Origin: Bradyrhizobium pachyrhizi | GTDB taxonomy: Bacteria > Pseudomonadota > Alphaproteobacteria > Rhizobiales > Xanthobacteraceae | Assembly (NCBI RefSeq): GCF_001189245.1 | Contig: NZ_LFIQ01000114.1 | Location: forward strand, 112,386 to 176,385 | DNA: 64,000 bases | Direction: 5' to 3' | Part shown: piece by piece, positions 11,758 through 25,832 of the stretch | Layout: each line of letters starts with the position of its first letter | How positions within the stretch are numbered: the first letter of the stretch is position 1 | The notes under the pieces: generated by a model | Seen by the model: only the letters and a program-made list of their open reading frames with translations | The model's database searches: none | Told to the model about the DNA's origin: nothing | Made by a program: the position numbers and the translations under genes

Positions 11758-12462
11758 TTACGCCCGGCGCATCAGCCGCAGTTCGGCCGACAGGCGAAGG
11801 CTGCGCTTGCCGGCCAGCGCGATTCCTTCGAGCTCGGCACCATCCGCACGGCACGAACCGGCGAAGCCGATGCCGACTTCATAACCGCCGAACACCGGGT
11901 ACTCGCCCTTCGCCGAGGTATGCTCCTGGTTGACGATCTCGCCTCGCCAGCGGCCATCCGCGGACGAATACGAACCGAGATAGTAGAAGAACGCATCGCC
12001 GCCGAGGATGCGGCCGTCCATCAGCAGCATGACCCCGGTGAGCCCGGCGTCGACACCGTCGAGCGCGCGGAGATGGATGGAGTACAGTCCGTTGACAATG
12101 CCGCCGGGACCAACCGCCCCGCGCGGCGGCAAGGCCTCGTCGTCGAGCGGCGCCAAATTCGCCCAGAACACGCCGTCCGGCATGGCGTCGGCCTTGCCCT
12201 CGAGCAGGATGGTGGAACCCTCGCTCCTGCCGCGCACCTTGATGACGGTGACGTCGGCGCCCATCAGCGGCTTGAAGTTCGGATCGTCATTGTGGCGCTC
12301 GGTGATCACCTCGGCGGCGATCTCGCCTTCCGTCACCTGATAGGTGCCGAGATGGGCAAAGGCCGAATTGCCGCCCAGCATCCTGCCGTCATGCATGCAC
12401 ATGATGCTGCGGCCGAATGCGCCGTTGATGCCGTACTCGACCTTGTAAAGTCCGTTGAGCAC
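11758..12462 (-). CDS. GrlR-like tandem-domain protein (copy 1)
   Basis: Protein of 234 residues made of two similar domains. The N-terminal half has NGLYKVEY and GRMLGGNSAFAHLGTY, and the C-terminal half has NGLYSIHL and GRILGGDAFFYYLGSY. Both fit the GrlR-like fold, a beta-barrel family named for a negative regulator of type III secretion in enteropathogenic E. coli. The GTG start at 12462 is supported by the paralog at 19667-20371, which has the same length and start context. Upstream sequence is strikingly AT-rich. No secretion genes are near, so a role in type III secretion is not supported. Confidence 0.7.
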   Translation of the reverse strand: MLNGLYKVEYGINGAFGRSIMCMHDGRMLGGNSAFAHLGTYQVTEGEIAAEVITERHNDDPNFKPLMGADVTVIKVRGRSEGSTILLEGKADAMPDGVFWANLAPLDDEALPPRGAVGPGGIVNGLYSIHLRALDGVDAGLTGVMLLMDGRILGGDAFFYYLGSYSSADGRWRGEIVNQEHTSAKGEYPVFGGYEVGIGFAGSCRADGAELEGIALAGKRSLRLSAELRLMRRA

Positions 12463-12747
12463 GCAAAAATCCAAAAAAATAAAATTGATTCTGTTCGCCA
12501 CATAGCACCGGGCCGAACGCCGCACCATTGCGTCTTTTGGCGCAGGCAAGCCCGCAATGTCCGGGTGTGGACAGCAGCCGATTCGTCGCTTAGCTGTAGG
12601 CACCGCCCGCGTCGTACTGCGTCACGCGGGATCTGGTCTGCCGGTCCTCCACTATCTCAGTTCATTGTGTCCAAGCATTTGCGCATTCCGCCAATGGTCG
12701 CGCGCCGCACCCGGCCTCGACACAGGCGAGGCTTCGAGGAGCATCAC
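12463..12747. other. intergenic region with AT-rich tract
   Basis: This 285-base divergent spacer separates the first GrlR-like gene from the secreted unknown. At 12463-12490 it contains an A-run tract directly before the GrlR-like start, far more AT-rich than its surroundings, which should place a promoter or leader there. I see no RNA gene. The right end carries a cgagga Shine-Dalgarno for the gene at 12748. Confidence 0.4.
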
Positions 12748-13839
12748 ATGATCAATCGCTTTGGCCTGGCCGCCGCGCTGGCGCTGCTGCTCGGCAGTGG
12801 CGGTGCTGCCCTGGCGCAGTCGCTGCCCGACTATATGGGGCCGATCTCCGGCAAGACCTCATCAACGCCGGCCGCCGTCGCGACCAAGGACGTGCTGGCG
12901 CTCAACACCGGCATGTTCGAGCTCTATGGCGATGCGGCGCGGATCTTCCAGAAGAACATCCTCGACAAACACCCCGTGATCCTCGGCCTGTTCTCCGGCG
13001 CCGGCGGCCGCCTGATCCTGTACCGGCCGGGCAAGCCGCCGACCGAAGCGCCGCAGGTGCCGATCGTCTATCAGCTGCTCAAATCGGTCGGCCACAGCAC
13101 GATGGCGCTGGCCGAGGTGGTCGGCCCCTATGTCAACAATCCCGACGACAAGGCGTGGCGCGGGTCGATGCAGGCCTATCGCAGCCGGATGCAGTCGGCG
13201 CTCGACGGGCTCGATGCTACGCCGATGCAGGCGGACTGGCGCGACAACAACCGCGCCATCCTCAAGAACAACATCGCCTTCATGGATGAATGCCTCACCG
13301 CCGGCGCGATCCTCTTCGCGACGCTCGAGGCGTTCGGCAAGAAGCAGGCGCCGCTGCTCGCCAGGAACGTCGCCTGGGCTGCGCAGACCCAGGTCGCGCA
13401 CTGGATGACAGTCATGGCCGACTGGAAATCCCAGCTCGGCGCCGACTGGGACAAGACCTACGGCGCGAGCAACACGATCTATGTGGCGCGGCAGAACAAC
13501 GTGATCTTCAGCGTGCTGGCCCAGTTCTTCGGGCCTGACGCCATCAACAGCCGCCTGATGCTGATCGAGACGATCTCCTTCACCACGACGCCGTCGGACA
13601 TGCTGGAGTCGCTGACCCGGATCATCGCCGACCGCTCGGTCGGCGCGCTGTTTTTCGGCAGCTATCACCTGATGGACTATGAGCTGATGGGGGGCGATGC
13701 GCGCGAGGCGATCATCGCCGAGACCAAGAAGCGCGGCATGACGGCCTTCCTGCCGCCGCTGGTGCCGTTCGGCTCCAAGCAGTGGCCGACGCTGATCACG
13801 CCGGGTCCGGGACCGGCCACCATCGCCGACCTGAAGTGA
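12748..13839 (+). CDS. secreted protein of unknown function (363 aa)
   Basis: Exported protein with a signal peptide cleaved near ALA-QS (residues 22-24). I recognise no domain. The mature part is mostly helical, with segments such as DVLALNTGMFELYGDAARIF and KNNIAFMDECLTAGAILFATLE, and has few cysteines. It starts at 12748 after a gagga Shine-Dalgarno. It lies 115 bases upstream of the molybdenum hydroxylase genes on the same strand, so a functional link to that periplasmic enzyme is possible but unproven. Confidence 0.7.
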   Translation: MINRFGLAAALALLLGSGGAALAQSLPDYMGPISGKTSSTPAAVATKDVLALNTGMFELYGDAARIFQKNILDKHPVILGLFSGAGGRLILYRPGKPPTEAPQVPIVYQLLKSVGHSTMALAEVVGPYVNNPDDKAWRGSMQAYRSRMQSALDGLDATPMQADWRDNNRAILKNNIAFMDECLTAGAILFATLEAFGKKQAPLLARNVAWAAQTQVAHWMTVMADWKSQLGADWDKTYGASNTIYVARQNNVIFSVLAQFFGPDAINSRLMLIETISFTTTPSDMLESLTRIIADRSVGALFFGSYHLMDYELMGGDAREAIIAETKKRGMTAFLPPLVPFGSKQWPTLITPGPGPATIADLK

Positions 13840-13954
13840 GACCACGCCTACGACCTATTGCGACGTTGCGGTTGTGCTCGCTTTGCCGCAATACTTTCAC
13901 GTGCATTGCACCAATTGTTAAACCCCGGCGCGATATGCCGTCGTCGAGGTGTCG

Positions 13955-16744
13955 ATGAAAGATCAGACCATGCGGCCTTCGCGACGCGAATTCGTGAAGT
14001 GGTTGTCGGCAGGCGGCATCTCGGTCAGCCTGTCGCATCTGGCGCTGGCGAAGGAACCGGCTTTCGCGACCCGCGAGACGCTGCCCGGTCACGGCCATTT
14101 CAATCCGGCGGAAAAGGGCGCCGGCCGTGTCGACGGCGTGGCCAAGGTCACCGGCGCAAAACTCTACGCGTCCGACTTTCGCGCCGCCGACATGCCGGGC
14201 TGGCCCGCGACCACCGCGCACGCCATCCTGGTCCGCGCCGATGACGCGACGCATGTCTATGCCGGCATGGACCTCGCCCGTCTCGATGATCAGGCAAAGC
14301 CGTCGGTTATCGTGACCGCTGCCGATCTCGACCGGATCGGCACGCGGGTCCCGGAATTCTACACCGGCGACCTGTTCTGCCCGGTCGGCAAGACGCCGCT
14401 CTATCTCGGACAGCCGGTCGCGCTGTTGATCTTCGAGCAGTTCGACGCCTTCGACCGCGCGCGCCTCGCGTTGCGCGACGGCGGCTTCGTCAAATTCGGC
14501 GACGAGACCGGGCCGGTCATCCTGCCGAACTACGGCGCGTATCGCTTCACGCGCGTGGCGGGCGCCACGCCTGACGCGCCCGACGTCTATTCGCCGATCC
14601 AGGCCGGCTGGGTTTCGCCGAGCCGCATTCAGAACGCGGCGCTGCCGGTCTGGCTGCCGCTCGCCAAGGAGACCAAGGCCGACTACGCCAAGGCCGCGAC
14701 CCATGGCGAAGCGATCCGCGCCCAGCTCGCCAAGGACGATCCGACACAGCTCGTGCTCGACCGCGAGTTCGAGACCCAGTCGGTCGATCCGATGTTCCTC
14801 GAGCCGGAGAGCGGTCTCGCCTGGTACAGCGACAACAACGGCAATCTCGAACTCTTGCTCGGCGTGCAGTCGCCCTATGAGGCGACCGAGTCGATCGCCT
14901 TCATGCTCGGCAAGGCCCGCCCGCCGTTCCGGCCCTCGCACATCAACGCGCAGTTCGCCCATGTCGGCGGCGGCTTCGGCGGCCGCGACCATACGCCATT
15001 CGTGCTTTACGTGGCGCTGGCGGCGATGTTCCTCCCGGGCCGGCCGGTGCGGCTGGCGCAGGACCGCTACCAGCAATTCCAGGGCGGCATCAAACGCCAC
15101 CCGATCAAGATGCGCTCGCGGATCGGCATCGATCGCGCCAGCGGCAAGATCACTGCGTTCGCCGCCGACCATGTGCTCGACGGCGGCGGGCTCGCCAACT
15201 TCTCGGCCAATGTCGCGGTCGTTGCCGCGACCGCTGCGATCGGCATCTACGACATCCCGAAAGTCGACGTCACCACCGTGGCGCTGCATTCGCGCGGCGT
15301 CACCGCAGGGTCGATGCGCGGCTACGGCACGCTGCAGACCATGACCGCGCTGGAAGTCCTGATCGACGAGGCCGCCAGCGAGCTCAAGGTCGATCCGATC
15401 GCGTTCCGGCGCAACAATGCGCTGAAGCAGGACGGCCGGACCATGACCGGCAATCCCTACATCGTATCGGTGCGCACATCAGATATCCTCGACAAGCTCG
15501 AGAAGCATCCGATCTGGCGGCAGCGCGCTGACTTCAAGCAGAAGGCGCTGGAGGGACGCCTGGTCGGCACCGGCGTCGCCTGCGTCACCAAGGATTACGG
15601 CTCGGGCGCGGATTGCTCGCTCGGCCGGGTCGAGATCGATCCCGAGGGACGGATCGCGATCCACTGCGACCATGTCGAAATGGGCAATGGCGTCGGCACC
15701 GCACTCGCCAACCGGGTCGCGAGCCATCTCGGCGCCGTCGCCGGCGAGGTCGCGGTCTCTCGGGTCGACAGCTATGACGCGCTCGGCCTGGTCACCTCGG
15801 GCGATCCCTACACGATGGATCAGAAGACCCAGGATCTTGCCGAGAAGAACACGCGCTGGGTGCCCGTGATCAGCTCGGCGACCAGCGCGTCGATCGGCGC
15901 CCATGTCGGCACGCACTCGTCGGCCGAGGCGGCCCGCGTCATCTTCCGCTTCGGCCTGTGGCCGGCGGCGCTCGAGCTCTGGCACATCGCCAAGGCCGAT
16001 CCCCGCGCCCGCCAATGGGACCAGGCGCACTGGAAGGATGGCCAGCTGGCGCTCGACGATCTCGCGCCGCTACCCTTGCCGAAGCTTGCCGCGACCGCGC
16101 ATGCGCGCGGCTTCGTCACCGGCGCCATCGCGCACAGCTTCTCGCGCTGGGCCTGGTCGCGCGCGCGCTTCCCCCTGTTCGGCGAACAGTACCGCGCCGA
16201 GATCGACGCGCTCGCTGTTCGTCGTGGCCGGAGCCAATTCGAGCGGATCGACCGAACAAGCGTGAAATTCCCGCCGACCGACAACAACCGGATCGGCACC
16301 GCCTACACCTCGATGTGCGGCACGCTGGTCCGCGTCGAGATCGAGCGCACGACCGGCAGCTTGCGCATTGTCAAGGCCTACAGCGTGTTCGAATGCGGCC
16401 AGGCGCTGGTGCCCGAAGTGGTGCTCGGCCAGTCGCATGGCGGGTTCGCCATGGGCGTCGGCTACGCGCTGCTGGAAACTTTGCCGCCGTTCGAAGGCGG
16501 GCCCGGCAACGGGCAGTGGAATCTCGGCCAGTACCTGATCGCGCGCGGCTCCGATCTGCCGCTGCACGATCTTGAGATCGAGATGCTGCCGCCACTGACG
16601 CCGGACGAGCCGCCGAAGGGCATGGCCGAGGTGGTGATGATCCCGATCGTGCCGGCGCTGCTCAACGCGATCAACGATGCGACCGGCCACCGCTTCCGCT
16701 CTCTGCCGGTGACAACAAGCCTGCTCAAGGGAGCGCTGGCGTGA
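13955..16744 (+). CDS. molybdenum hydroxylase, molybdopterin-binding subunit (isoquinoline 1-oxidoreductase type)
   Basis: Large catalytic subunit of a xanthine-oxidase family hydroxylase, 929 residues. A twin-arginine signal (SRREFVKW at residues 9-16) predicts export of the folded enzyme to the periplasm. Cofactor-site segments HVGGGFGGRD and SMRGYGTLQ are present, and the catalytic glutamate is E892 in PKGMAE. It is longer than common members because of an insert around FGLWPAALELWHIAKADPRA. Like IorB-type enzymes it should hydroxylate an N-heterocycle or aldehyde using water; the substrate is unknown. ATG 13955 has a gagg Shine-Dalgarno. The stop overlaps the next gene by four bases. Confidence 0.85.
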   Translation: MKDQTMRPSRREFVKWLSAGGISVSLSHLALAKEPAFATRETLPGHGHFNPAEKGAGRVDGVAKVTGAKLYASDFRAADMPGWPATTAHAILVRADDATHVYAGMDLARLDDQAKPSVIVTAADLDRIGTRVPEFYTGDLFCPVGKTPLYLGQPVALLIFEQFDAFDRARLALRDGGFVKFGDETGPVILPNYGAYRFTRVAGATPDAPDVYSPIQAGWVSPSRIQNAALPVWLPLAKETKADYAKAATHGEAIRAQLAKDDPTQLVLDREFETQSVDPMFLEPESGLAWYSDNNGNLELLLGVQSPYEATESIAFMLGKARPPFRPSHINAQFAHVGGGFGGRDHTPFVLYVALAAMFLPGRPVRLAQDRYQQFQGGIKRHPIKMRSRIGIDRASGKITAFAADHVLDGGGLANFSANVAVVAATAAIGIYDIPKVDVTTVALHSRGVTAGSMRGYGTLQTMTALEVLIDEAASELKVDPIAFRRNNALKQDGRTMTGNPYIVSVRTSDILDKLEKHPIWRQRADFKQKALEGRLVGTGVACVTKDYGSGADCSLGRVEIDPEGRIAIHCDHVEMGNGVGTALANRVASHLGAVAGEVAVSRVDSYDALGLVTSGDPYTMDQKTQDLAEKNTRWVPVISSATSASIGAHVGTHSSAEAARVIFRFGLWPAALELWHIAKADPRARQWDQAHWKDGQLALDDLAPLPLPKLAATAHARGFVTGAIAHSFSRWAWSRARFPLFGEQYRAEIDALAVRRGRSQFERIDRTSVKFPPTDNNRIGTAYTSMCGTLVRVEIERTTGSLRIVKAYSVFECGQALVPEVVLGQSHGGFAMGVGYALLETLPPFEGGPGNGQWNLGQYLIARGSDLPLHDLEIEMLPPLTPDEPPKGMAEVVMIPIVPALLNAINDATGHRFRSLPVTTSLLKGALA

Positions 16745-17265
16745 CGACGCTCAACCTCACCATCAACGGCCAGAAGCACGGCCCGATCGAGGTCCGCGAC
16801 GACCTCTCGATGAACGATTTCCTTCGGGAAATGCTCGGGATGACCGGGACCAAGTTCGGCTGCGGCGCCGCGCAATGCCTGAGCTGTGCCGTCATCATCG
16901 ATAATCCCGACGGCACGAGCTACACCACCCCGACCTGCGTGGTACCCGCCGCGAATTTCGACGGCAAGGCGATCCGCACCGTCGAGGGCCACGCCAGGGA
17001 CGGCGAGCTCTCGGCGTTGCAGCGCGCCTTCATCGACCACTTCGCGTTCCAGTGCGGCTATTGCACGGCCGGCTTCCTCAACGAGGGCCAGGTGCTGCTC
17101 GAACGGCTGGCAAAGACGCCGGTGGCACGGGACCAGCTCGAGAGCGTCATTGCGGATGCGCTCGACGGCCATCTGTGCCGCTGCACCGGCTACATCAAGT
17201 ATCACCAGGCTGTGCGCGACGTGATCCTCGCCGATTCCAAACGCTATCTGACCGCCAGCAAGTAA
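16741..17265 (+). CDS. molybdenum hydroxylase, 2Fe-2S subunit
   Basis: Small iron-sulfur subunit of 174 residues that carries electrons from the molybdenum site. Cysteines 41, 46, 49 and 66 form the plant-ferredoxin-type cluster, and cysteines 105, 108, 146 and 148 (CGYC, CRC) form the second, so both clusters are complete. It starts with GTG in the overlap with the large subunit and has no signal peptide; it is presumably carried out of the cell by the Tat signal of its partner. No FAD subunit is encoded, as in the IorAB type. Confidence 0.9.
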   Translation: MTTLNLTINGQKHGPIEVRDDLSMNDFLREMLGMTGTKFGCGAAQCLSCAVIIDNPDGTSYTTPTCVVPAANFDGKAIRTVEGHARDGELSALQRAFIDHFAFQCGYCTAGFLNEGQVLLERLAKTPVARDQLESVIADALDGHLCRCTGYIKYHQAVRDVILADSKRYLTASK

Positions 17266-17276
17266 GCGTGCAAGCA

Positions 17277-17894
17277 ATGCCATCGGAAATGCGGTTTCGG
17301 ATCGTTGCAGTGCTGACGGCGCTCGCGACCAGCCTGTGCGCAGGCTACGCGGCGTCGGAAAGCGCGAGCCACGCCCTCGCCTCGCCGGAAAGCTTTGCCG
17401 GCATCGAGAACGTCGAGCAGCGCTCGGCGGCGATCTTCACCGAACTCGGCAAGGTATTGACGCATCCGCGCTGCACCAACTGCCATCCCGCCGGCGACAG
17501 CCCGCGGCAGGGCGATGTCAGCCGCATGCATCAGCCGCCGGTGACGCGCGGTGCCGACGGCCACGGCAACGACGCCATGCGCTGCTCGATCTGTCACCAG
17601 CACGCCAATTTCGATCCCGGTCGGGTGCCGGGCCACCCGGAATGGCACCTTGCGCCGCGCGAGATGGCATGGGCCGGCAAGACCGTCGGCGAGATCTGCG
17701 CACAAATCCGCGACCCCGCGCGGAATGGCGGCCGCAAGGTCGAGGAGCTGATCGAGCATATCGGCAAGGACACGCTGGTGGGCTGGGCCTGGCATCCCGG
17801 CTTCGGCCGCGCACCGGCACCCGGCACGCAGGCGCAGGCCGGCGCGCTGGTCGAGGCCTGGGTGAAGACCGGCGCGGCCTGCCCAGCGCCCTAG
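17277..17894 (+). CDS. di-heme cytochrome c subunit of the molybdenum hydroxylase
   Basis: Exported protein of 205 residues with two CxxCH heme sites, CTNCH at 66-70 and CSICH at 103-107. The signal peptide covers about the first 25 residues. It lies 11 bases after the 2Fe-2S subunit gene, and such proteins are often annotated as an isoquinoline 1-oxidoreductase subunit. The likely role is to accept electrons from the 2Fe-2S subunit and pass them to the respiratory chain, replacing the missing flavin subunit. The exact start is uncertain: GTG 17268, ATG 17277 and ATG 17289 are all possible. Confidence 0.75.
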   Translation: MPSEMRFRIVAVLTALATSLCAGYAASESASHALASPESFAGIENVEQRSAAIFTELGKVLTHPRCTNCHPAGDSPRQGDVSRMHQPPVTRGADGHGNDAMRCSICHQHANFDPGRVPGHPEWHLAPREMAWAGKTVGEICAQIRDPARNGGRKVEELIEHIGKDTLVGWAWHPGFGRAPAPGTQAQAGALVEAWVKTGAACPAP

Positions 17895-17910
17895 TCGCGC
17901 AACGTCCGAA

Positions 17911-18060
17911 CTAGTGGCGCTTGAAATACTGCACGTCGCGCTCGTGCTTCTCCGCCGCAGCGCGCGACTTGAAGGTGCCGAGATTGCGCCGCTTGCCGGT
18001 CTTCGGATTGACCTTGCGGGAATACAGCCGGTACTCGCCGGAACTTAGTTTGCGGATCAT
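17911..18060 (-). CDS. small conserved basic protein (49 aa)
   Basis: Basic 49-residue protein beginning MIRKLSSGEYRLYSRKVN and continuing with KTGKRRNLGTFKSRAAAEKHERDV. I recall similar short proteins across Rhizobiales, but no function is known. The fold looks like a beta hairpin followed by a helix, which could suit nucleic-acid binding; that is a guess. The start at 18060 is the conserved one, and the in-frame ATG at 18099 adds an unrelated extension. It is convergent with the cytochrome gene. Confidence 0.7.
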   Translation of the reverse strand: MIRKLSSGEYRLYSRKVNPKTGKRRNLGTFKSRAAAEKHERDVQYFKRH

Positions 18061-18123
18061 CGCAACGTCTCGCCAATGCCTTTCGCATGTCAACGACATG
18101 CCGCGGCGAGCGTTCCAGTTTGC

Positions 18124-18978
18124 TTAGAAGCACAGATTGGTCACGGGATTGCCGCGCTTGTCCTTGATGACGTAGGGACAGCGGGCCCGCTCCAGCGCCT
18201 TCTTGGCATCCTCATCGCCGAGCGCCGCCGCCCGCTCGTAATAGGCTTTTGCGGCATCGCTATCCTTCGGCCCGCCGCGACCGGCCTGCGCGAAGGCGCC
18301 CAGCCGCTCCAGCGCGCCCGGATGGTTCTGCGCGGCGGCCTTCTCGAACAGCGCCCGCGCGCCGGCATCGTCCTGCGCGCCGCCCTTGCCTTCGGCCAGC
18401 ATCATGCCGAGCTGGTACTGCGCTTCGGCATTGGTCTCGGCGGACCTGGCAAGCAATTCGCGCGCGCGTGCCGGATCAGCCGCCGCCCCGCCGCCGAGCG
18501 CCGCAAGGTTGCTGACGCCGCGCGCGTTGCCGGCCTGCGCCGCGCGCTCGAACAATTTGCGCGCCTGCGCTTCGTCCTTGGCAACGCCGGTGCCGTTGCC
18601 GTAGAGCACGCCGAGCTCGACCATCGCCGACGTCGAGCCCTTGTCGGCGGCCTTGCGCCAGGCGCTTGCGGCTTCCGCGGTCTGCCGGTTGGCGGCATAG
18701 GCCCGGCCGAGCTCGTACATCGCCCGGCGCGACGATCTTGCCGCCACCGCGCAGTACTTGATCGCGGTCGCGATGTCGGCCGACGCGATCTCGCCCACGC
18801 CCTTCACGTCGGCCGGCTTGTCGGGATCGGTGGGATCGGCGGCGAGCCGGTCGCACAGAACGAGGTCGGCCGATTGCGCGTGGGCAACCACGGGCGCGGC
18901 CAGCGCCGCAGCAAAGACAATCGCGTGAAGTGGTTTGAACATGACAAGCAGGTTGCGTCGCGGTGCGGGCGAATTCAT
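18124..18978 (-). CDS. Sel1-repeat (TPR-like) secreted protein
   Basis: Protein of 284 residues with a signal peptide (AAPVVAHA-QS) and several Sel1-like repeats such as SAMVELGVLYGNGTGVAKDEAQARKLFERAA and AEAQYQLGMMLAEGKGG. Sel1 repeats form alpha solenoids that hold protein complexes together; here in the periplasm. The ATG at 18978 overlaps the stop of the upstream ModA-like gene (atga), so the two are translationally coupled. An ATG at 18942 gives a shorter signal peptide. The last residues GNPVTNLCF carry an unpaired cysteine. Confidence 0.8.
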   Translation of the reverse strand: MNSPAPRRNLLVMFKPLHAIVFAAALAAPVVAHAQSADLVLCDRLAADPTDPDKPADVKGVGEIASADIATAIKYCAVAARSSRRAMYELGRAYAANRQTAEAASAWRKAADKGSTSAMVELGVLYGNGTGVAKDEAQARKLFERAAQAGNARGVSNLAALGGGAAADPARARELLARSAETNAEAQYQLGMMLAEGKGGAQDDAGARALFEKAAAQNHPGALERLGAFAQAGRGGPKDSDAAKAYYERAAALGDEDAKKALERARCPYVIKDKRGNPVTNLCF

Positions 18979-19661
18979 GGCTCGAGCCCGGTCTCGCGCA
19001 GCACCGGCGCGACGTCAGCCGACGACAGATAGCGCAGCAGATCATCGGCGGCCGCTGCGCGCTGCGACGCTGCCATGCGGCCGGCGGAGAACACCGCCGG
19101 AACCTGCAAATCCAGCGGAATCGGCCCGACGACCTCGATGCCCTCGATCTGCTTCAACTCGCTGATCTGCTGGATTGCAAGGTCGGCGTCGCCGCTGACG
19201 AGCTTTTCCGCGGTGAATCCGCTCGGAACGATCACCGCCCGCGCGTTGATCGCCTCCACAATGCCGAGACGCTCGATCAGCTGCGCGAACAGGATGCCGC
19301 TGGCGCCGAGCCGCGAATAGGCCACCGCGCTCGCTCCGAGCAGCGCCGCACGCAACGCGGCTTCAGTCGCGATGTCGGGATGCGCGGCTCCCGCCTTCAT
19401 CGCGACGCCGACATAGGAGCGCGCAAGATCCACTGCGCTCTCCCGCGCAACGCGGCCCTCGCCGATCGTCTCGTCAAGACCCTCGCGGGTCAGGATCACG
19501 AGATCAGCGGCCTCGCCGCCGCGCAGGCGCTCGAGCAGTGCCAGCGTCGGGGCGAAATCGGCGTCGATCGCAACGCCGCTCGCCGCCTGATAGGAGGCGG
19601 CTAGCCGCACGACCGCGCCCTTCAGCGCCAGCGTCGAAAGAACGCGAACCGAATTGCCCAT
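18975..19661 (-). CDS. ModA-like substrate-binding protein without signal peptide
   Basis: Protein of 228 residues resembling the type 2 periplasmic binding fold of molybdate-binding ModA (VRVLSTLALKGAV, then DLVILTREGLDETI and GASGILFAQLIERLGI). It begins directly with the first strand of the fold and has no signal peptide, so it should stay in the cytoplasm. No permease or ATPase genes are adjacent. It starts five bases after the GrlR-like stop and overlaps the Sel1 gene, making a tight three-gene operon. It may sense a small anion rather than transport one; that is an inference. Confidence 0.7.
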   Translation of the reverse strand: MGNSVRVLSTLALKGAVVRLAASYQAASGVAIDADFAPTLALLERLRGGEAADLVILTREGLDETIGEGRVARESAVDLARSYVGVAMKAGAAHPDIATEAALRAALLGASAVAYSRLGASGILFAQLIERLGIVEAINARAVIVPSGFTAEKLVSGDADLAIQQISELKQIEGIEVVGPIPLDLQVPAVFSAGRMAASQRAAAADDLLRYLSSADVAPVLRETGLEP

Positions 19662-19666
19662 ATGGC

Positions 19667-20371
19667 CTATGCCCGCCGCATCAGCTTGAGCGCGGCCGTA
19701 AGGCGCAGGCTGCGCTTGCCGGCAAGCGCGGTCGCCTCCAGCACGGCGCCATCGGCGTCGCAAGTGCCTGCAAAGCCGATGCCGACCTCGTGGCCGCCAA
19801 AGATCGGATTCTCGCCCATCGCCGAAGTGTGCTCCTGATTGAGAATCTGGCCCTTCCAGCGGCCTTTCTCGGAGGTGTAGGTGCCGAGATAGTAGAAGAA
19901 GGCGTCGCCGCCAAGGATGCGGCCATTGTTCAGCAGCATCACGCCGGTGAGGCCGCCGTCGACCCCATCGAGCACGCGGATGCGGATCGAATAGAGCCCG
20001 TTGATGACGCCACCCTCGCCGACCCCGCCGGCGATCGGGATGTCCTCCCCGGTGATCGGCGTCATCACCGACTGGAACGGCACGCCGGGCAGTTCCTTCA
20101 GCTCGCCCCTGAAGCGATAGAGTTCGCCGTCCGGCCGGCCTTTGGCAATCAGCGTGGCATCATCGGTACCGGCCATCGCGCGGTAGGTCGGATCGGGATT
20201 GTGGCGGACGGTCTGGATCTCGACTGCCACCTCGTCGCCGGCTTTCTCGTAGGTGCCGATATGGGCGAACGCCGAGTTGCCGCCCAACATCTTGCCGTCG
20301 CCGACATACATCACGCTGCGGCCGACGGCGCCGCCGAGTTCGAACCGGACCTTGTAAAACCCCTCAAACAA
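19667..20371 (-). CDS. GrlR-like tandem-domain protein (copy 2)
   Basis: Paralog of the protein at 11758-12462, also exactly 234 residues. Domain 1 (FYKVRFEL, GKMLGGNSAFAHIGTY) and domain 2 from about residue 122 (NGLYSIRI, GRILGGDAFFYYLGTY) repeat the GrlR-like fold. The second domain is more conserved between the copies (HTSAMGENPIFGGHEVGIGFAG against HTSAKGEYPVFGGYEVGIGFAG). The start is a TTG at 20371 with ggggac upstream. It heads an operon with the cytoplasmic ModA-like gene and the Sel1-repeat gene. Function unknown. Confidence 0.7.
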   Translation of the reverse strand: MFEGFYKVRFELGGAVGRSVMYVGDGKMLGGNSAFAHIGTYEKAGDEVAVEIQTVRHNPDPTYRAMAGTDDATLIAKGRPDGELYRFRGELKELPGVPFQSVMTPITGEDIPIAGGVGEGGVINGLYSIRIRVLDGVDGGLTGVMLLNNGRILGGDAFFYYLGTYTSEKGRWKGQILNQEHTSAMGENPIFGGHEVGIGFAGTCDADGAVLEATALAGKRSLRLTAALKLMRRA

Positions 20372-20480
20372 GCGCCGCGTCCCCGGCAGCCAACATGCAC
20401 CCGTTATCTAGCGCGGTTCATAACGCAGCGAAACCGGTTTCGGCGGAACGCCACCTGCAAAGGGTATCGCTAAATAGCGA

Positions 20481-20512
20481 AGGTCCGCCAAGGCTGTCGC
20501 CCTGGCGGACCT
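20481..20512 (-). terminator. probable terminator after glnII
   Basis: A perfect 10-base inverted repeat (aggtccgcca at 20481-20490 and tggcggacct at 20503-20512, loop 12) lies downstream of glnII. It is followed on the minus strand by a mixed AT stretch rather than a clean T-run. A second small hairpin (ccggatgg-ct-ccatccgg) is at 20524-20541. Confidence 0.5.
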
Positions 20513-20569
20513 GATTTGCGGTACCGGATGGCTCCATCCGGGTCCGATAGCAGCTTAGCCCGCAGCCAC

Positions 20570-21604
20570 TTAAGCCGCAGCCTTGGCGCCGGTCGGAACC
20601 TCGGAGATCGTCTTCAGGATCTGCGAAGCGATCTGGTAGGGGTCGCCTTGCGAGTTCGGGCGGCGATCTTCCAGATAGCCCTTGTAGCCGTTGTTGACGA
20701 ACGAGTGCGGCACGCGGATCGAGGCACCACGGTCAGCCACGCCGTAGCTGAACTTGTTCCAGGGCGCGGTCTCGTGCTTGCCGGTCAGGCGCTTGTCGTT
20801 GTCCGGGCCGTAGACGGCGATGTGATCCATCAGGTTCTTGTCGAAGGCCTTCATCAGGCTCTCGAAGTACTCCTTGCCGCCGACTTCGCGCATGTACTTG
20901 GTCGAGAAGTTGGCGTGCATGCCCGAGCCGTTCCAGTCGGTGTCGCCGAGCGGCTTGCAATGGAATTCGATATCGATGCCGTAGCTCTCGGTGAGGCGCA
21001 GCATCAGGTAGCGGGCCATCCACATCTGGTCAGCGGCGGTCTTGGAGCCCTTGCCGAAGATCTGGAATTCCCACTGGCCCTTCGCCACTTCGGCGTTGAT
21101 GCCTTCGTGGTTGATGCCGGCGGCGAGGCAGAGATTGAGATGCTCTTCGACGATCTTGCGGGCGACGCTGCCGACGTTCTTGTAGCCGACGCCGGTGTAG
21201 TACGGGCCCTGCGGCGCCGGATAACCCTCTTCCGGAAAGCCGAGCGGACGGCCGTCTTTGTAGAAGAAGTATTCCTGCTCGAAGCCGAACCAGGCGCCTT
21301 CGTCATCCAGAACGGTGGCGCGCTTGTTCGAGACATGCGGCGTCTTGCCGTCGGGCATCATGACTTCGCACATCACAAGCACGCCGTTCTCGCGCGCGGC
21401 GTCGGGATAGCAGGCGACCGGCTTCAGCACGCAGTCAGAGCTGTGGCCTTCAGCTTGCTGGGTGGACGAACCGTCAAAACCCCACAGCGGAAGCTGTTCG
21501 AGGGTCGGGAACGACGCGAATTCCTTGATCTGCGTCTTACCGCGCAGGCTCGGCGTCGGCGTATATCCGTCGAGCCAGATATACTCGAGCTTGTACTTGG
21601 TCAT
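20570..21604 (-). CDS. glnII: glutamine synthetase, type II
   Basis: Eukaryotic-like GSII of 344 residues, making glutamine from glutamate, ammonia and ATP in the cytoplasm. The start MTKYKLEYIWLDG and the segments WGFDGSSTQQAEG, NHEGINAEVAKGQWEFQ, GSGMHANFS and the RGASIRVP active-site block are typical of rhizobial GlnII, and length is normal. The start at 21604 has an agaggt Shine-Dalgarno. A candidate sigma-54 promoter lies about 95 bases upstream, consistent with the NtrC-dependent nitrogen control known for Bradyrhizobium glnII. The divergent small gene at 22143 belongs to the family that includes GstI, a repressor of glnII translation in Rhizobium. Confidence 0.95.
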   Translation of the reverse strand: MTKYKLEYIWLDGYTPTPSLRGKTQIKEFASFPTLEQLPLWGFDGSSTQQAEGHSSDCVLKPVACYPDAARENGVLVMCEVMMPDGKTPHVSNKRATVLDDEGAWFGFEQEYFFYKDGRPLGFPEEGYPAPQGPYYTGVGYKNVGSVARKIVEEHLNLCLAAGINHEGINAEVAKGQWEFQIFGKGSKTAADQMWMARYLMLRLTESYGIDIEFHCKPLGDTDWNGSGMHANFSTKYMREVGGKEYFESLMKAFDKNLMDHIAVYGPDNDKRLTGKHETAPWNKFSYGVADRGASIRVPHSFVNNGYKGYLEDRRPNSQGDPYQIASQILKTISEVPTGAKAAA

Positions 21605-22142
21605 TGAACCTCTCTGTTGATGATGCAAAACCGTGAGGAACCGAAAGCCAGTCGGCCGCCGCACGCGTACCCGGCCACCATCGGCCGGCTCTTACTAAGC
21701 AATTAAAATGCCAGTCGCTGCACTGCGGCGGCCGCCCGGCCGCGGATGTCCACAGCGGAGATCGCATTTTTTTCTGCGACATAGCAGCGCGGCTGGCATG
21801 CGCGCGCTCAGTCAAAATCTTCTCCCGGCGCCCTCCACCGCCCGTTTCTGCAGCAAATTTGGCTACGGCATCGCCTGCCGCTTAATGCGGCGGCAGCACC
21901 ATGTGACAGTTCGCGTCCAGCGGTCGGGCGCCCCGCAACCATCGTCGCGGCTCAAGCGTTGGTCAGCTGCACCCTGCCTCACAGGAAGCAAACCCGAATC
22001 TGCCCACGAATTGACCAAACAATGACTATTTCTTGGTCACTTGCACCCCGCCCAGCCCGGGCCGATATCGAAAACACGGTAACCACACGCGAATGAGTCG
22101 GGCGCACCATGGAGGCTCGCTCCGGCCAAAGGAGACTTTGAC
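21605..22142. other. glnII / DUF2735 divergent intergenic region
   Basis: This 538-base spacer holds the sigma-54-like site at 21698-21713. I found no tRNA or clear NtrC-binding palindrome. The right end carries an aaaggag Shine-Dalgarno for the gene at 22143. Confidence 0.5.
21698..21713 (-). promoter_or_regulatory. candidate sigma-54 promoter of glnII
   Basis: On the minus strand the site reads tggcattttaattgct. The GG and GC elements are separated by exactly 10 bases, as required for -24/-12 promoters, and the sequence differs from the consensus only in the bases just after TGGCA. Transcription should begin near 21687, giving a leader of about 83 bases before the glnII start. Confidence 0.7.
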
Positions 22143-22355
22143 ATGATCACCACGGGCCAAAACCAAGGACCGATCCAGGGATCGGCAACAATCTATCAAT
22201 TCCCGGCAGGAGGCCGCGCGGCTCTCGGCGGACGCCGCTACGGCGAGGCGCGGACCGCGCTCGAACTCGCCGCTGAGGTCGAGACCTCGGCCTGCAGCGA
22301 GAGCTGGTACCATCAGGCGGCCATCGACGACGCCAAGCCAGGCCGCGATCACTGA
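22143..22355 (+). CDS. DUF2735 / GstI-like small protein
   Basis: Small protein of 70 residues with the ATIYQFPAGGR motif typical of the DUF2735 family. As far as I recall, this family includes GstI, the glutamine synthetase translational inhibitor of Rhizobium leguminosarum, encoded divergently upstream of glnII. The same gene order is found here. GstI-type action would block glnII mRNA translation when nitrogen is plentiful. The start follows an aaaggag Shine-Dalgarno. The family call rests mainly on the motif and position. Confidence 0.65.
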   Translation: MITTGQNQGPIQGSATIYQFPAGGRAALGGRRYGEARTALELAAEVETSACSESWYHQAAIDDAKPGRDH

Positions 22356-22409
22356 TGCAGATGCGATCGAGGGGCGCGACGCAAAAACGTCAGACAGCAG
22401 CAGAATAAC

Positions 22410-22444
22410 AAGGGTCGGAACGCGAGCGTTTCGGCCCTTTTTTA
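22410..22444 (+). terminator. rho-independent terminator
   Basis: The stem aagggtcggaacg pairs with cgtttcggccctt across a short loop and is followed by a run of seven Ts. It ends the DUF2735 transcript and overlaps the 3' end of the convergent MliC gene. Confidence 0.8.
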
Positions 22445-22753
22445 TGCCAGCTCGCAGGCCGTCGCCGGCCGCCTCGCATGCCGGAGCCTGGCAAGCCCGG
22501 CCCGGCTGATCTCGAGCGTGACCCCGCCGCCCTTGTAGCGCGTGCCAGTCAGCGACAGGCGCTTCTTCAGCGTCACCGCCTTGCCGTCGAGTTGCAGATG
22601 CGCGCGCGTATCCCCGTTGAAGAACCCGGCAATGAACTGCGTGCCGTCAGCGCAATGATAATTCCGGAAGGCGGACTGCGCCGACACGTTCGAGGAACCA
22701 AAGAGCTCGAAAAGAATTGCGCCGATGACAATGGCGCCCCCGCGATAAGTCAT
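22442..22753 (-). CDS. MliC-family lysozyme inhibitor
   Basis: Exported protein of 103 residues with a signal peptide (cleavage near VSA-QS) and an MliC domain. The YHCADGTQFIAGFF strand, AHLQLDGKAVTL and LSLTGTRYKGGGVTLEI follow the family pattern. The two cysteines (in YHC and near the C-terminus, ATACELA) should form the domain's disulfide. MliC proteins bind c-type lysozyme and protect peptidoglycan from host enzymes. No lipobox cysteine is seen, so it may be soluble in the periplasm. The start has a strong ggggggag Shine-Dalgarno. Confidence 0.75.
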   Translation of the reverse strand: MTYRGGAIVIGAILFELFGSSNVSAQSAFRNYHCADGTQFIAGFFNGDTRAHLQLDGKAVTLKKRLSLTGTRYKGGGVTLEISRAGLARLRHARRPATACELA

Positions 22754-22838
22754 ATTCTCCCCCCAACGGGCCGGTTATAGACCTGTCTGCGCCGCTATTC
22801 CTGCGCCAAGACCTCATCAGCTGCAACAGGCCCGCCCG

Positions 22839-23582
22839 ATGTCCGAAGCCCCTGCCCGTCATCTCAATCTCGCCGGCGCCAGCAATTTTCGCGACCTTGG
22901 CGGCTACCAGACGCGCGACGGGCGGACGGTGCGCTGGCGCCAGATCTTCCGCTCCAACCATCTTGCGCACCTCACCGAGCAGGACGTTGCCGTGGTGCGC
23001 TCGCTCGGGGTCAGGAGCGCGTTCGATTTCCGCGGCGTCGCCGAGCGCGCCGAGGCGCTGTGCGGCATGAGCGACGTCACCGTGCATTCACTCCCGGTCG
23101 AGCCGACCGTAGTGGCTTCGCTGCGCGAGATCGCCAGCAACCGTCAGATCTCGGAAGCCGATGCGATCGACGTGATGCGGGACTCCTACCGGGGTTATGT
23201 GCAGGACAACACGGCGCGCTACCGCACGCTGTTTGCTCATCTATTGGAAGACCGGGCGCCGCTCGTGATCCACTGCACCGCCGGCAAGGATCGCACCGGC
23301 TTTGCCTGCGCGCTGATCCTGCACGCACTCGGCGTGTCCGAGCAGGTGATCGCGGACGACTATCTCCTGACCAATCAGTTCTACAAGCGCGACCCGGCCC
23401 ACAGCACCGAGCTGCCTGACGACGTCAAGCAGGTGCTCGGCACCGTGCGCGCGGCATTTCTGGAGGCTGCATTCGAGGCGATCGATGCCGACTATGGCAG
23501 CCTCGACGGTTATTTCCACGAAGGCCTAGGGCTCGGCCAGGCCGAGCGCAAGGCGCTCGAAGGCCGCTATCTGCGGGCCTGA
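22839..23582 (+). CDS. tyrosine-protein phosphatase
   Basis: Protein phosphatase of 247 residues of the atypical bacterial tyrosine or lipid phosphatase group (Y_phosphatase3). The catalytic P-loop HCTAGKDRTG has its nucleophile at C146 and the phosphate-binding arginine at R152. The N-terminal NFRDLGGY block is diagnostic of the group. There is no signal peptide. Relatives dephosphorylate phosphotyrosine or phosphoinositides; the substrate here is unknown. It stands alone between the MliC gene and a small convergent gene. Confidence 0.88.
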   Translation: MSEAPARHLNLAGASNFRDLGGYQTRDGRTVRWRQIFRSNHLAHLTEQDVAVVRSLGVRSAFDFRGVAERAEALCGMSDVTVHSLPVEPTVVASLREIASNRQISEADAIDVMRDSYRGYVQDNTARYRTLFAHLLEDRAPLVIHCTAGKDRTGFACALILHALGVSEQVIADDYLLTNQFYKRDPAHSTELPDDVKQVLGTVRAAFLEAAFEAIDADYGSLDGYFHEGLGLGQAERKALEGRYLRA

Positions 23583-23596
23583 TCAGTTCGCCCGAC

Positions 23597-23638
23597 TTTT
23601 CGAGCGACGTGCACACCGGTTCGCGTGAAGAAAACGCG
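23597..23638 (+). repeat. dispersed palindromic repeat, type A
   Basis: The sequence ends with accggttcgcgtgaagaaaa. It resembles, in opposite orientation, the element at 27539-27584. I recall this short repeat as common in Bradyrhizobium intergenic regions. Confidence 0.55.
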
Positions 23639-23654
23639 GCTGAACTAAAAAAGC

Positions 23655-23867
23655 TCAGGCCGCTGCGGCCTCGAGCTCGAGCTCCGCATCGAGGTCGGCA
23701 ATCACATCCTCGAACGCCGAGATCGCCTGCTGGATCGCGGCGATCTGCATCAATTCCCAGCTGCCCACTGGTCCCTTGCGGTTTTGCAGCGCCACCACGA
23801 GATCGCGCCGCTGCTCCTTAAGCTGAACGAGCGGTAAACCGTGATCCGGAAGATTTCCCATTCGCAT
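23655..23867 (-). CDS. hypothetical protein (70 aa)
   Basis: Acidic helical protein starting MRMGNLPDHGLPLVQL and ending in an ELELEAAAA tail. The middle (QLKEQRRDLVVALQNRKG, then IAAIQQAISAFEDVIADLDAE) reads as two amphipathic helices that could form a coiled coil. I recognise no family. The start at 23867 follows a cagggg Shine-Dalgarno; an in-frame extension to 23948 has none. Confidence 0.6.
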   Translation of the reverse strand: MRMGNLPDHGLPLVQLKEQRRDLVVALQNRKGPVGSWELMQIAAIQQAISAFEDVIADLDAELELEAAAA

Positions 23868-23995
23868 AACCCCTGCCTTGGCTGGAGTTCCGCTTCTACG
23901 GAAAGGGTTCTGCGAACGACTTACAGAACTGCTGCAAATTTTATCCAACAGGCCCTACCCCGTAGTCTTACGTAGTCGGGCCGACGTTGTTGGGC

Positions 23996-24685
23996 TTACG
24001 TGATCGCCTCCGGCTTCAATGCGTCGTCGATCGCGCCGAACAGCGACTGGGTCACGCAATTGGTCGCCCATTCGCTGGTATGAAGCTGCCCGCCATCGTC
24101 GAGCTCGGCGAGTGGAATCCCGTCATCGGTCCAGTGCTTCATCAGCGCGAACCGGCTGAACAGATTCACCTTCTTGCTTGCAGCTACTTCGGCGATCATC
24201 GGCATTATCACGTTGGCGAGATTGAGCGCAGCTTCCGTGCCGACGATCGCCTGCGTGTACTGGGAATCCATCACGACCACGTCAAGCGGAAGCGCTGCGA
24301 GCACGTCGAGCCCCGCCTCCAGCGTCGCGCGCACCTCGGCCGGATTGTAGCTCTTGTAGACGGCGTTGGTGCCGACCTGCCAGATCACCAGCACCGGCGC
24401 CTCAGCCGTCACGTCGGACTCGATGCGCGAATATTCCTCCGGCGCCTCCTGCCCGCCGATCCCGCGATTGATCACGTCGATCATCCGGCCGAAGAAGCGT
24501 TGCCGCAGCAGCATCTCGAGCCGCGGCGGGAACGGCAGGATGTTGTCGGCGCCCGCGGTCGAGGACGATCCGAGCGCCACCAGCTTGATCTTGCGCTGAT
24601 GCCGGAGCGCATCCGCGAAGTGCGGCAGCTTGTGTCCGAACCTGACGACATCGAGATGGGTTTCGCACGATCTGGGCGTCGGCAT
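23996..24685 (-). CDS. SGNH/GDSL hydrolase
   Basis: SGNH-fold esterase or acetylhydrolase of 229 residues. The first block is VALGSSSTAG with the nucleophile serine, the third block is WQVGTNAVY, and the last block is near LDDGGQLHTSEW with its histidine. The start at 24685 (MPTPRSCETH) has an aagga Shine-Dalgarno eight bases before it; ATGs at 24694 and 24754 are less likely. There is no obvious signal peptide. The substrate is unknown. It is divergent from the short-chain dehydrogenase gene. Confidence 0.75.
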   Translation of the reverse strand: MPTPRSCETHLDVVRFGHKLPHFADALRHQRKIKLVALGSSSTAGADNILPFPPRLEMLLRQRFFGRMIDVINRGIGGQEAPEEYSRIESDVTAEAPVLVIWQVGTNAVYKSYNPAEVRATLEAGLDVLAALPLDVVVMDSQYTQAIVGTEAALNLANVIMPMIAEVAASKKVNLFSRFALMKHWTDDGIPLAELDDGGQLHTSEWATNCVTQSLFGAIDDALKPEAIT

Positions 24686-24810
24686 AGCAAACATCCTTGA
24701 GGCGAATGAATTGATAAATACGCGCAGTAGGCGGCGAAATTGGCGGCATTGCAAATGAATTCCGCCTGATCATAGTGGGCATTCGTTTGCTCGCGAATGC
24801 GGAGACCGCC

Positions 24811-25491
24811 ATGCACGGAAAAGCCATCGTCATCACGGGCGCCCTCGGCGCGCTTGGCAAAGTGGTCGCCACGGAGGCGCTGGCGCGCGGCGCGCGCGTC
24901 GCCGGCATCGATCATGCCGCGTCAACGCTTGCGGCGACGGCCGACCATATCGAGCTGGGCGGTGTCGACCTCACCGACACTGCGCAGGCGACCGCCGCGA
25001 TCGACAAGGCGGCCGCGCATTTCGGCCGGCTCGATGGGCTGATCAACATCGCCGGCGGCTTTACCTTCGAGGCGGTCGGCGACGGCGATCCGGCGACCTG
25101 GCAGCGCATGTATGCGATGAACGTGATGACGGCGCTCAACACCTCGCGCGCCGCCATCCCGCATCTCACCAAATCGGGCGCCGGCCGGATCATCAATATC
25201 GGCGCGCTCGGTGCCTTGCAGGCCGCCTCCGGCATGGGTCCCTACGCTGCCTCGAAGGCCGGCGTGCATCGCCTTACCGAGTCGCTCGCCGCGGAACTCA
25301 AGGGCAAGGTCACGGTCAACGCGGTGCTGCCCTCGATCATCGACACCGCCGCCAACCGCGCCGCGATGCCGAAGGCCGACATCTCCAAATGGGTGACGCC
25401 GAAGGAGCTCGCCGACGTGATCCTGTTCCTCGCCAGCGACGCCGCGAGCGCCGTCACCGGCGCGCTGCTGCCGGTGAACGGGCGGGTTTAG
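24811..25491 (+). CDS. SDR family oxidoreductase
   Basis: Short-chain dehydrogenase of 226 residues, NAD(P)-binding through TGALGALG at residues 9-16. The catalytic YxxxK is Y145 and K149 in GPYAASKAG. At the place of the usual catalytic serine, 13 residues before the tyrosine, the sequence has alanine (INIGALGAL), so the standard catalytic triad is incomplete. The substrate cannot be told. The start at 24811 follows a ggaga Shine-Dalgarno. Its end overlaps the convergent third GrlR-like gene by four bases. Confidence 0.85.
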   Translation: MHGKAIVITGALGALGKVVATEALARGARVAGIDHAASTLAATADHIELGGVDLTDTAQATAAIDKAAAHFGRLDGLINIAGGFTFEAVGDGDPATWQRMYAMNVMTALNTSRAAIPHLTKSGAGRIINIGALGALQAASGMGPYAASKAGVHRLTESLAAELKGKVTVNAVLPSIIDTAANRAAMPKADISKWVTPKELADVILFLASDAASAVTGALLPVNGRV

Positions 25492-25832
25492 TCCGCAACC
25501 AGCAGCCGCAGCTTCGACCTGAAGCGGATGCTCTGCTTGCCGGCGAGCGCCATGCCGTCACCTTCGGCGGTCTGGTCGGTATAGGTGCCGGTAAATCCGA
25601 TCGTGACCACCTTGCGTTCCCACACCGGGCGCTCGCCATAGGTCGGCGAATGCTCCTCGTTGGTGACCTCGCCCTTCCACTTGCCGTCGGCTGCGGTGTA
25701 GCTGCCGTAGGCAAAGAAAAACGAGTCGCCGCCGCGCATCTGTCCGTCGCGCAGCACCATGACGCCCTGGTTGCCGCCAGAGACGCCGTCGAGAAATTCG
25801 ACAGTGATGTGATAGAGCCCGTTCCGGATCAT
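25488..25832 (-). CDS. GrlR-like single-domain protein (copy 3)
   Basis: Protein of 114 residues equivalent to one domain of the tandem GrlR-like proteins. It has NGLYHITVEFLDG, GQMRGGDSFFFAYGSY, DGKWKGEVTNEEHS and a C-terminal LAGKQSIRFRSKLRLL that mirrors the LAGKRSLRL ending of the other copies. It aligns best with their second domain. The start at 25832 is an ATG with a weak Shine-Dalgarno; an in-frame extension to 25976 has no family match. No partner gene is adjacent on the same strand. Function unknown. Confidence 0.65.
   Translation of the reverse strand: MIRNGLYHITVEFLDGVSGGNQGVMVLRDGQMRGGDSFFFAYGSYTAADGKWKGEVTNEEHSPTYGERPVWERKVVTIGFTGTYTDQTAEGDGMALAGKQSIRFRSKLRLLVAD

Follow-up and report, generated by a model that had tools for sequence, protein, structure and literature searches.

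Within the window, the whole stretch of 64,000 nucleotides of Bradyrhizobium pachyrhizi DNA analysed here (it lies on contig C49; the genome measures 8.7 Mb), lie three genes for relatives of GrlR, the repressor of the LEE (locus of enterocyte effacement) pathogenicity island (PF16518; PDB 2ovs, 3e3c, 4kt5). All three are on the minus strand; a first-pass annotation had their coordinates and lengths right and had left the strand unstated. Two of them, T1 (11758..12462, GTG start) and T2 (19667..20371, TTG start), encode 234 residues each and are tandems, as had been claimed, with two profile-matched domains and two modelled barrels. In T1 (model m7064648068f2), whose orthologues match it in length or nearly so, the N barrel comprises residues 1-109 (12136..12462; model strands E4-12 to E94-105) and the C barrel residues 122-234 (11761..12099; model strands E125-133 to E220-233). 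The corresponding profile matches in T2, the gene that heads a conserved run described below, are residues 1-109 (20045..20371) and residues 122-234 (19670..20008). The third gene (25488..25832; 114 residues, ATG start, model mf2dd51deb850) has a single domain of the C type. T1 and T2 are 59% identical overall, 41% in their N halves and 76% in their C halves. The genome has seven GrlR-like loci with nine domains, four further single-domain copies being on other contigs, and no common theme is discernible in the surroundings of the copies genome-wide. Two of the singles, L006 (on C121) and L007 (on C55), are of the N type and carry proline-rich, positively charged C-terminal tails.

How far does the name GrlR apply to these genes? 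Against PF16518, whose cut-off is 26.8 bits, the three window proteins give 12.8 bits, no match and 13.3 bits, and only three of the nine domains of the source genome give any match at E-values up to 10, the best (L004) at 20.5 bits. Nothing in Pfam or NCBIfam exceeds its cut-off for the three window proteins, and the matches from PADLOC and PHROGs are weak and unconvincing. A profile made from the nine domains scores them, its own input, at E-values no higher than 1.4e-35 and brings in homologues from other genera, the best at 2.5e-46; judged by these scores, the shared domain is no chance resemblance. Against PDB sequences the same profile has GrlR at both top ranks, at E-values of only 0.21 and 0.25. 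Two other searches were set aside: phmmer with one tandem against PDB sequences gave unrelated matches, and with a profile of the whole tandem cobalamin adenosyltransferase-like chains rank above GrlR, so that the single-domain profile alone puts GrlR first. What carries the relationship is an intermediate. L107, a protein from another family of the phylum, matches the nine-domain profile at E 1e-9 and PF16518 at 48 bits (E 1.6e-12), and because it matches both, the window family is homologous to GrlR. The genome that encodes it is the one genome among 396 of the phylum sample in which PF16518 is over its cut-off. The GrlR-like identity proposed in the first-pass annotation was thus borne out, via this sequence and the fold, despite direct Pfam scores under the cut-off. 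In alignment the window family and GrlR have in common an N-terminal (K/N)(D/N)G-(L/I)-Y-S-I strand and a GGD motif. GrlR differs in its EDED motif, implicated in regulation according to the title of the GrlR structure paper cited by PMC9979310: none of 446 distinct domains has a run of four acidic residues, and three of the four are present at that site in 12 of the 440 domains whose loop was found by pattern. The window genes are members of a wider GrlR-like family and not GrlR orthologues.

The predicted fold agrees. The AlphaFold model of the tandem has two eight-stranded barrels (pLDDT 90.9, pTM 0.87), that of the single gene product has pLDDT 89.3 and pTM 0.80, and in neither does a helix precede the first strand. 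GrlR is likewise an eight-stranded barrel of about 110 residues and the best natural Foldseek match of the single-domain model: against PDB, in alignments that cover the window and the Bradyrhizobium loci, GrlR chains take the first three places (E 7e-5 to 4e-4, TM-score up to 0.77), the first match after them is at E 0.013, and lipocalins are among the matches with E above 0.01. For the tandem model GrlR chains occupy ranks 2 to 4 with probability 1.00. VIA Z values for GrlR are 12.2-13.4, the best being 13.4 over 104 residues, while streptavidins reach about 8.6-9.5; identity in the structural alignments with GrlR is 9-14%. A fold unrelated to GrlR had been named as what would refute the first assignment, and in both models the barrel is like that of 2ovs and 4kt5.

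Whether the tandems are doubled single domains was addressed by a domain tree of 113 columns and 62 rows, reduced from 477. All 28 N halves form one clade (100/99) and all 12 C halves another (98/93), and both clades persist without two long rows (100/99 and 97/87). The single gene of the window sits with C-type singles, next to the C halves; L006 and L007 are in the N-side part of the tree, at a weakly resolved fork, and with 113 columns many deeper forks likewise lack resolution. A tree constrained to unite N and C halves is 40 log-likelihood units worse and is rejected (approximately unbiased test, p-AU 0.0024); the test presumes that the group was chosen in advance, and long branches can make its result misleading. 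The common origin of the three genes, earlier read from their repeated motifs, therefore stands for the family, while neither half of a tandem is a recent copy of the other, the comparison of tandem with single forms placing N and C types in distinct clades with the window single on the C side. The tree and alignment indicate that the tandem is one fusion of two already diverged domain types, and since the halves diverged before a single fusion, it resembles a joined heterodimer and not a doubled homodimer. The earlier idea that a tandem may mimic a GrlR dimer would suit two barrels in a single chain, but the halves are unlike. Over 63 tandems mean column conservation is 0.66 in the N half and 0.83 in the C half. 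The conserved residues also differ, with RH at 56-57 in the N half and N-x-E-H at 178-181 in the C half; in the C barrel D156, N178, E180, H181, K219 and R223 are each conserved in at least 95% of the 63.

Relatives are encoded in all 60 of the Bradyrhizobium genomes sampled, and a full-length tandem in 56, the exceptions being G014, G032, G041 and G048. Copy number tracks genome size within the genus (rho 0.54). Relatives turn up in 36 of the 119 genomes, and in 14 of the 47 genera, of the family sample. The order sample has 13 positive genomes among 249, seven of them Bradyrhizobium, and the phylum sample 14 among 398, ten of them Bradyrhizobium; of the other phylum matches one, L109, looks like chance. 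In these two wide samples only 11 or 18 candidates were scored per genome, so that misses are possible. Eight plasmid records match the N-type single and none the C-type single; among viral contigs, none of 26 pattern-matching stretches encodes a relative. No study of these genes in Bradyrhizobium was found in the literature searched; the one paper listed for GrlR and that genus together is on Sinorhizobium.

Are the genes then tied to type III secretion, as the name would have it? The marker taken for that system was SctV alone (TIGR01399, curated cut-off). It is over the cut-off in 35 of the 60 Bradyrhizobium genomes, including the source genome, which has an intact gene on C66. The first-pass annotation had seen no secretion genes, and none was noticed in the window; the same genome nevertheless has that SctV gene elsewhere. 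A second SctV-like gene in it, G000:C30:1303-3336, has five in-frame stops. Genomes with SctV have a mean of 6.2 GrlR-like matches and those without it 5.5 (Mann-Whitney p 0.06), and after removal of genome size the rank correlation of copy number with SctV is -0.01. Across the family sample, SctV is below the cut-off in 32 of the 36 GrlR-like-positive genomes. The partner of GrlR fares no better: the CaiF_GrlA family is over its cut-off in none of the 60 Bradyrhizobium genomes, with weak matches (E 0.1 to 1.5) in 12. The two control genomes of that search, Escherichia coli and Corynebacterium glutamicum, both gave a match, one of them above the cut-off. The suspicion that the family has a role outside type III secretion is thereby supported, if indirectly, by the presence of the genes where the SctV marker and GrlA were not found. 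Because they are kept genus-wide with or without SctV, and GrlA is over the cut-off in none of the 60 genomes, the family name is probably misleading here, and it is likely that the genes have a general function of older date. A paralogous set is, after all, retained across a genus of soil and nodule bacteria, and GrlR-type proteins were named after one job in gut pathogens.

T2 has company. Immediately downstream, after a 5-bp gap, is a gene for an SBP_bac_11 (ModA-like) protein (18975..19661, minus strand; Pfam PF13531, 127 bits, residues 5-226), which overlaps by 4 bp a gene for a Sel1-repeat protein (18124..18978, minus strand; Pfam PF08238). Upstream is a conserved neighbour, a glutamine synthetase gene (20570..21604, minus strand; Pfam PF00120 and PF03951), which its neighbourhood leads us to call glnII. 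Neighbours were counted with our own gene caller in the best 79 of 244 candidate stretches, hence those closest to T1 (78 from Bradyrhizobium and one from a Bradyrhizobiaceae bacterium), and the common order on one strand is glnII, T2, ModA-like, Sel1. T2 is next in line after 59 of 66 glnII genes and the ModA-like gene after 58 of 64 copies of T2, the gaps listed between these two being -4 to 34 bases; behind the ModA-like gene comes the Sel1 gene in 51 of 62. In whole Bradyrhizobium genomes the ModA-like gene is present in 57 of 60, and in 49 of these 57, by hand count, a full-length tandem is within about 60 bases upstream of it. A comparison of neighbourhoods, which the first-pass annotation had proposed, thus reveals a conserved T2, ModA-like and Sel1 run within the genus, and different neighbours outside it, where L194, L195 and L198 have a Sel1-like gene close to the tandem. 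The ModA-like domain begins at residue 5 from the called start, which leaves no room for a signal peptide; its frame is open further upstream into T2, and a longer start is possible. The Sel1 protein has by eye a signal-peptide-like N terminus.

PMC4933562 describes GrlR as a cytosolic lipocalin whose cavity binds lipids, citing published work for the latter, and which binds the helix-turn-helix domain of GrlA, and PMC9979310 as a dimer of antiparallel barrels that also represses without GrlA by a route left unexplained there. Our proposal, to which we give about an even chance, is that the window proteins are cytosolic calycin-type GrlR homologues, the tandems among them deriving from a single fusion of N and C types, and that they are ligand-responsive regulators outside type III secretion. 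N-type and C-type single-barrel genes would have been joined once to give a covalent pseudo-heterodimer. By analogy with what is reported for GrlR, a ligand that is small and probably hydrophobic may sit inside the barrel and another protein may be bound on its outside, so that the whole could serve as an adaptor or anti-regulator that responds to the ligand. A binding activity common to the tandems and the single-domain gene would reside in the strongly conserved C barrel, and what sets each paralogue apart in specificity would lie in the fast-changing N barrel. It is proposed that the target is other than a type III secretion system and the partner other than GrlA; for T2 the co-encoded ModA-like and Sel1 proteins are the first candidates as partners. 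A ligand-binding adaptor is suggested because the barrel is shared, a link to GrlA or secretion is not seen, and a fixed C barrel is combined with a variable N barrel. The presumed cytosolic location is consistent with the absence, by eye, of a signal sequence. Homology, fold, the two domain clades, retention in the genus, independence of SctV and of GrlA and the conserved run are results of the computations; location, ligand binding, a protein partner and regulation are inferences from them.

A number of results weigh against this proposal. Rank 1 for the tandem model in Foldseek goes to 3rwx, an outer-membrane protein whose E-value is better than that of GrlR but whose TM-score is 0.29. Designed barrels tie with GrlR in VIA Z, at 13.4 and 13.3 at best, as do OprF and a quinohemoprotein amine dehydrogenase domain, both at 12.3. 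As eight-stranded barrels are common in unrelated proteins, the fold alone proves neither ancestry nor function, and the claim of ancestry therefore needs the sequence intermediate. L107, over the Pfam cut-off as it is, also lacks EDED, and for that reason the motif marks GrlR itself and not the family. There is a weak positive link with secretion at family level, SctV being over the cut-off in 4 of the 36 genomes with relatives and in 1 of the 83 without (Fisher p 0.03); without Bradyrhizobium the link is not seen (1 of 31 versus 1 of 83, p 0.47). As to partners for T2, the ModA-like gene is kept without a full-length tandem in G014, G032 and G048, is missing despite one in G003 and G006, and is not beside the tandem in 13 regions from other genera of the family (L193-L203, L205, L207). 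Because the two genes also occur apart, the run may be plain synteny.

Comparison with described systems helps to place the family. It departs from GrlR in being fused in pairs, in having several copies per genome and scores below the Pfam cut-off, and in lacking EDED, a GrlA over the cut-off and a link to SctV. Among rhizobial single-domain proteins of the GrlR family, a Phyllobacterium plasmid gene annotated 'GrlR family regulatory protein', found with N-type L006, is a likeness; these proteins are unlike the tandems in being unfused and, for L006 and L007, in their tails. By its description the VtrC/VtrA bile-salt receptor of Vibrio parahaemolyticus, in which a ligand-binding calycin barrel controls a transcription factor, is also similar, and its authors name GrlR/GrlA as the closest example (PMC4933562). 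VtrC/VtrA is, however, an obligate heterodimer with the periplasmic part of the activator. Cap15, a cyclic-dinucleotide receptor (PDB 7n34), is another small eight-stranded barrel (VIA Z 11.4-11.9). Membrane helices precede the barrel of Cap15, whereas models of the window family have no helix ahead of theirs, and a scan with a defence library gave one weak match only, to a family other than Cap15.

Another reading does without regulation: the proteins might be mere carriers or buffers of a small hydrophobic molecule, in the manner of fatty-acid-binding proteins. The calycin kind of barrel, the reported lipid binding by the GrlR cavity (PMC4933562) and the scattering of copies in surroundings without visible theme would all suit such a role, but the highly conserved polar residues of the C barrel suggest more than a greasy pocket, and we consider it doubtful. 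That the tandem is an internal duplication fixing a GrlR-type homodimer in one chain, and working like the single-domain dimer, is unlikely. It would accord with the dimer of antiparallel barrels reported for GrlR (PMC9979310) and with the two barrels predicted by the tandem model; it is the separate clades of the halves, the cost of joining them and their different conserved residues, RH in one and N-x-E-H in the other, that speak against it.

Most improbable, to our mind, is that these genes are negative regulators of type III secretion acting on the rhizobial system of this genome. An intact and an interrupted SctV gene are indeed present, the family-level association mentioned above points the same way, and there is a single hint from expression work among the papers found: in Sinorhizobium fredii HH103 a gene named grlR was 4.9-fold down and some secretion genes up under mannitol, from which the authors suggest a link (PMC9952627). 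Yet 25 of the 60 Bradyrhizobium genomes have the genes with SctV below the cut-off (a few, such as G041 and G046, holding split fragments), copy number follows genome size and not the secretion system once size is removed, GrlA is over its cut-off in none of the 60 genomes, EDED is absent from the 446 domains, and the SctV genes are on C66 and C30 and not on the contig of the window. The fused form is a natural single-chain pair of two barrel types, which makes it handy for finding what such barrels bind.

A more specific form of the proposal would make T2, the apparently signal-less ModA-like protein and the Sel1 protein a signalling module of Bradyrhizobium, in which the ModA-like protein, in the cytosol, would detect a solute such as a small anion and the fused unlike barrels would relay this to transcription. 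We would give it only a small chance. Were it true, it would suggest a more general and older family of barrel regulators as the source of GrlR in enteric pathogens. To our knowledge no use of a fused GrlR-type heterodimer has been described.

Sel1 is followed directly by T1 in 19 of 61 loci; in the window several genes intervene. Four of these, at 12748-17894 between the tandems, occur in only some of the 79 loci (14 to 20) and look as if inserted into an older run; by eye two of them encode a molybdo-hydroxylase-like large subunit and a 2Fe-2S subunit, and the products of the other two have no Pfam match. Upstream of a ModA-like gene in another genome, G052:C24:322372-322752 matches tandem residues 2-128 only and contains a stop codon, and may be a decayed tandem copy.

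Transcription of T2 is probably its own. Between it and glnII there are strong hairpins (one of 14 pairs at 20455..20575, minus strand; minimum free energy -61.4 kcal/mol, z -5.2 over 121 bases) that are likely a terminator, which makes a separate promoter for T2 probable; with a strong hairpin between the genes, a glnII-T2 operon was rejected as likely. A consensus promoter scan gave no promoter-like site between glnII and T2, and that a conserved element seen by eye upstream of T2 is a promoter is only a guess. In a low-oxygen table of PMC6515984 the row for glnII (blr4169) has the values 2.0 and 2.1. The four genes numbered next after it might, as a guess from the numbering, be the T2 run, and a literature search found no mention of their names. 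Just before the T2 start (window 20371-20400) GCCGGGGACACGGC or a close variant places Shine-Dalgarno bases in a possible small hairpin. The arms of such hairpins are alike by eye in many of 68 distinct upstream sequences, and the loop varies; translational control of T2 through it was set aside, as similar arms by eye are no support for a structure.

The start of T1 in the window is not certain. Its frame continues without a stop as far upstream as 12603, and from an ATG at 12528 the product would be 256 residues long. Among orthologues and paralogues the frame is closed within 15 codons upstream of the short start in 98 of 149, and length is 233-235 in 144 of 178 domain-bearing frames. Our own start picker, which takes the start nearest the domain, gives GTG or TTG in 147 and ATG in two of the 149 tandems with readable upstream sequence (L114-L192), an upper bound for non-ATG starts because an upstream ATG is also present in 10 of the 98 tandems whose frame closes within 15 codons and a longer open frame in 51 of the 149.

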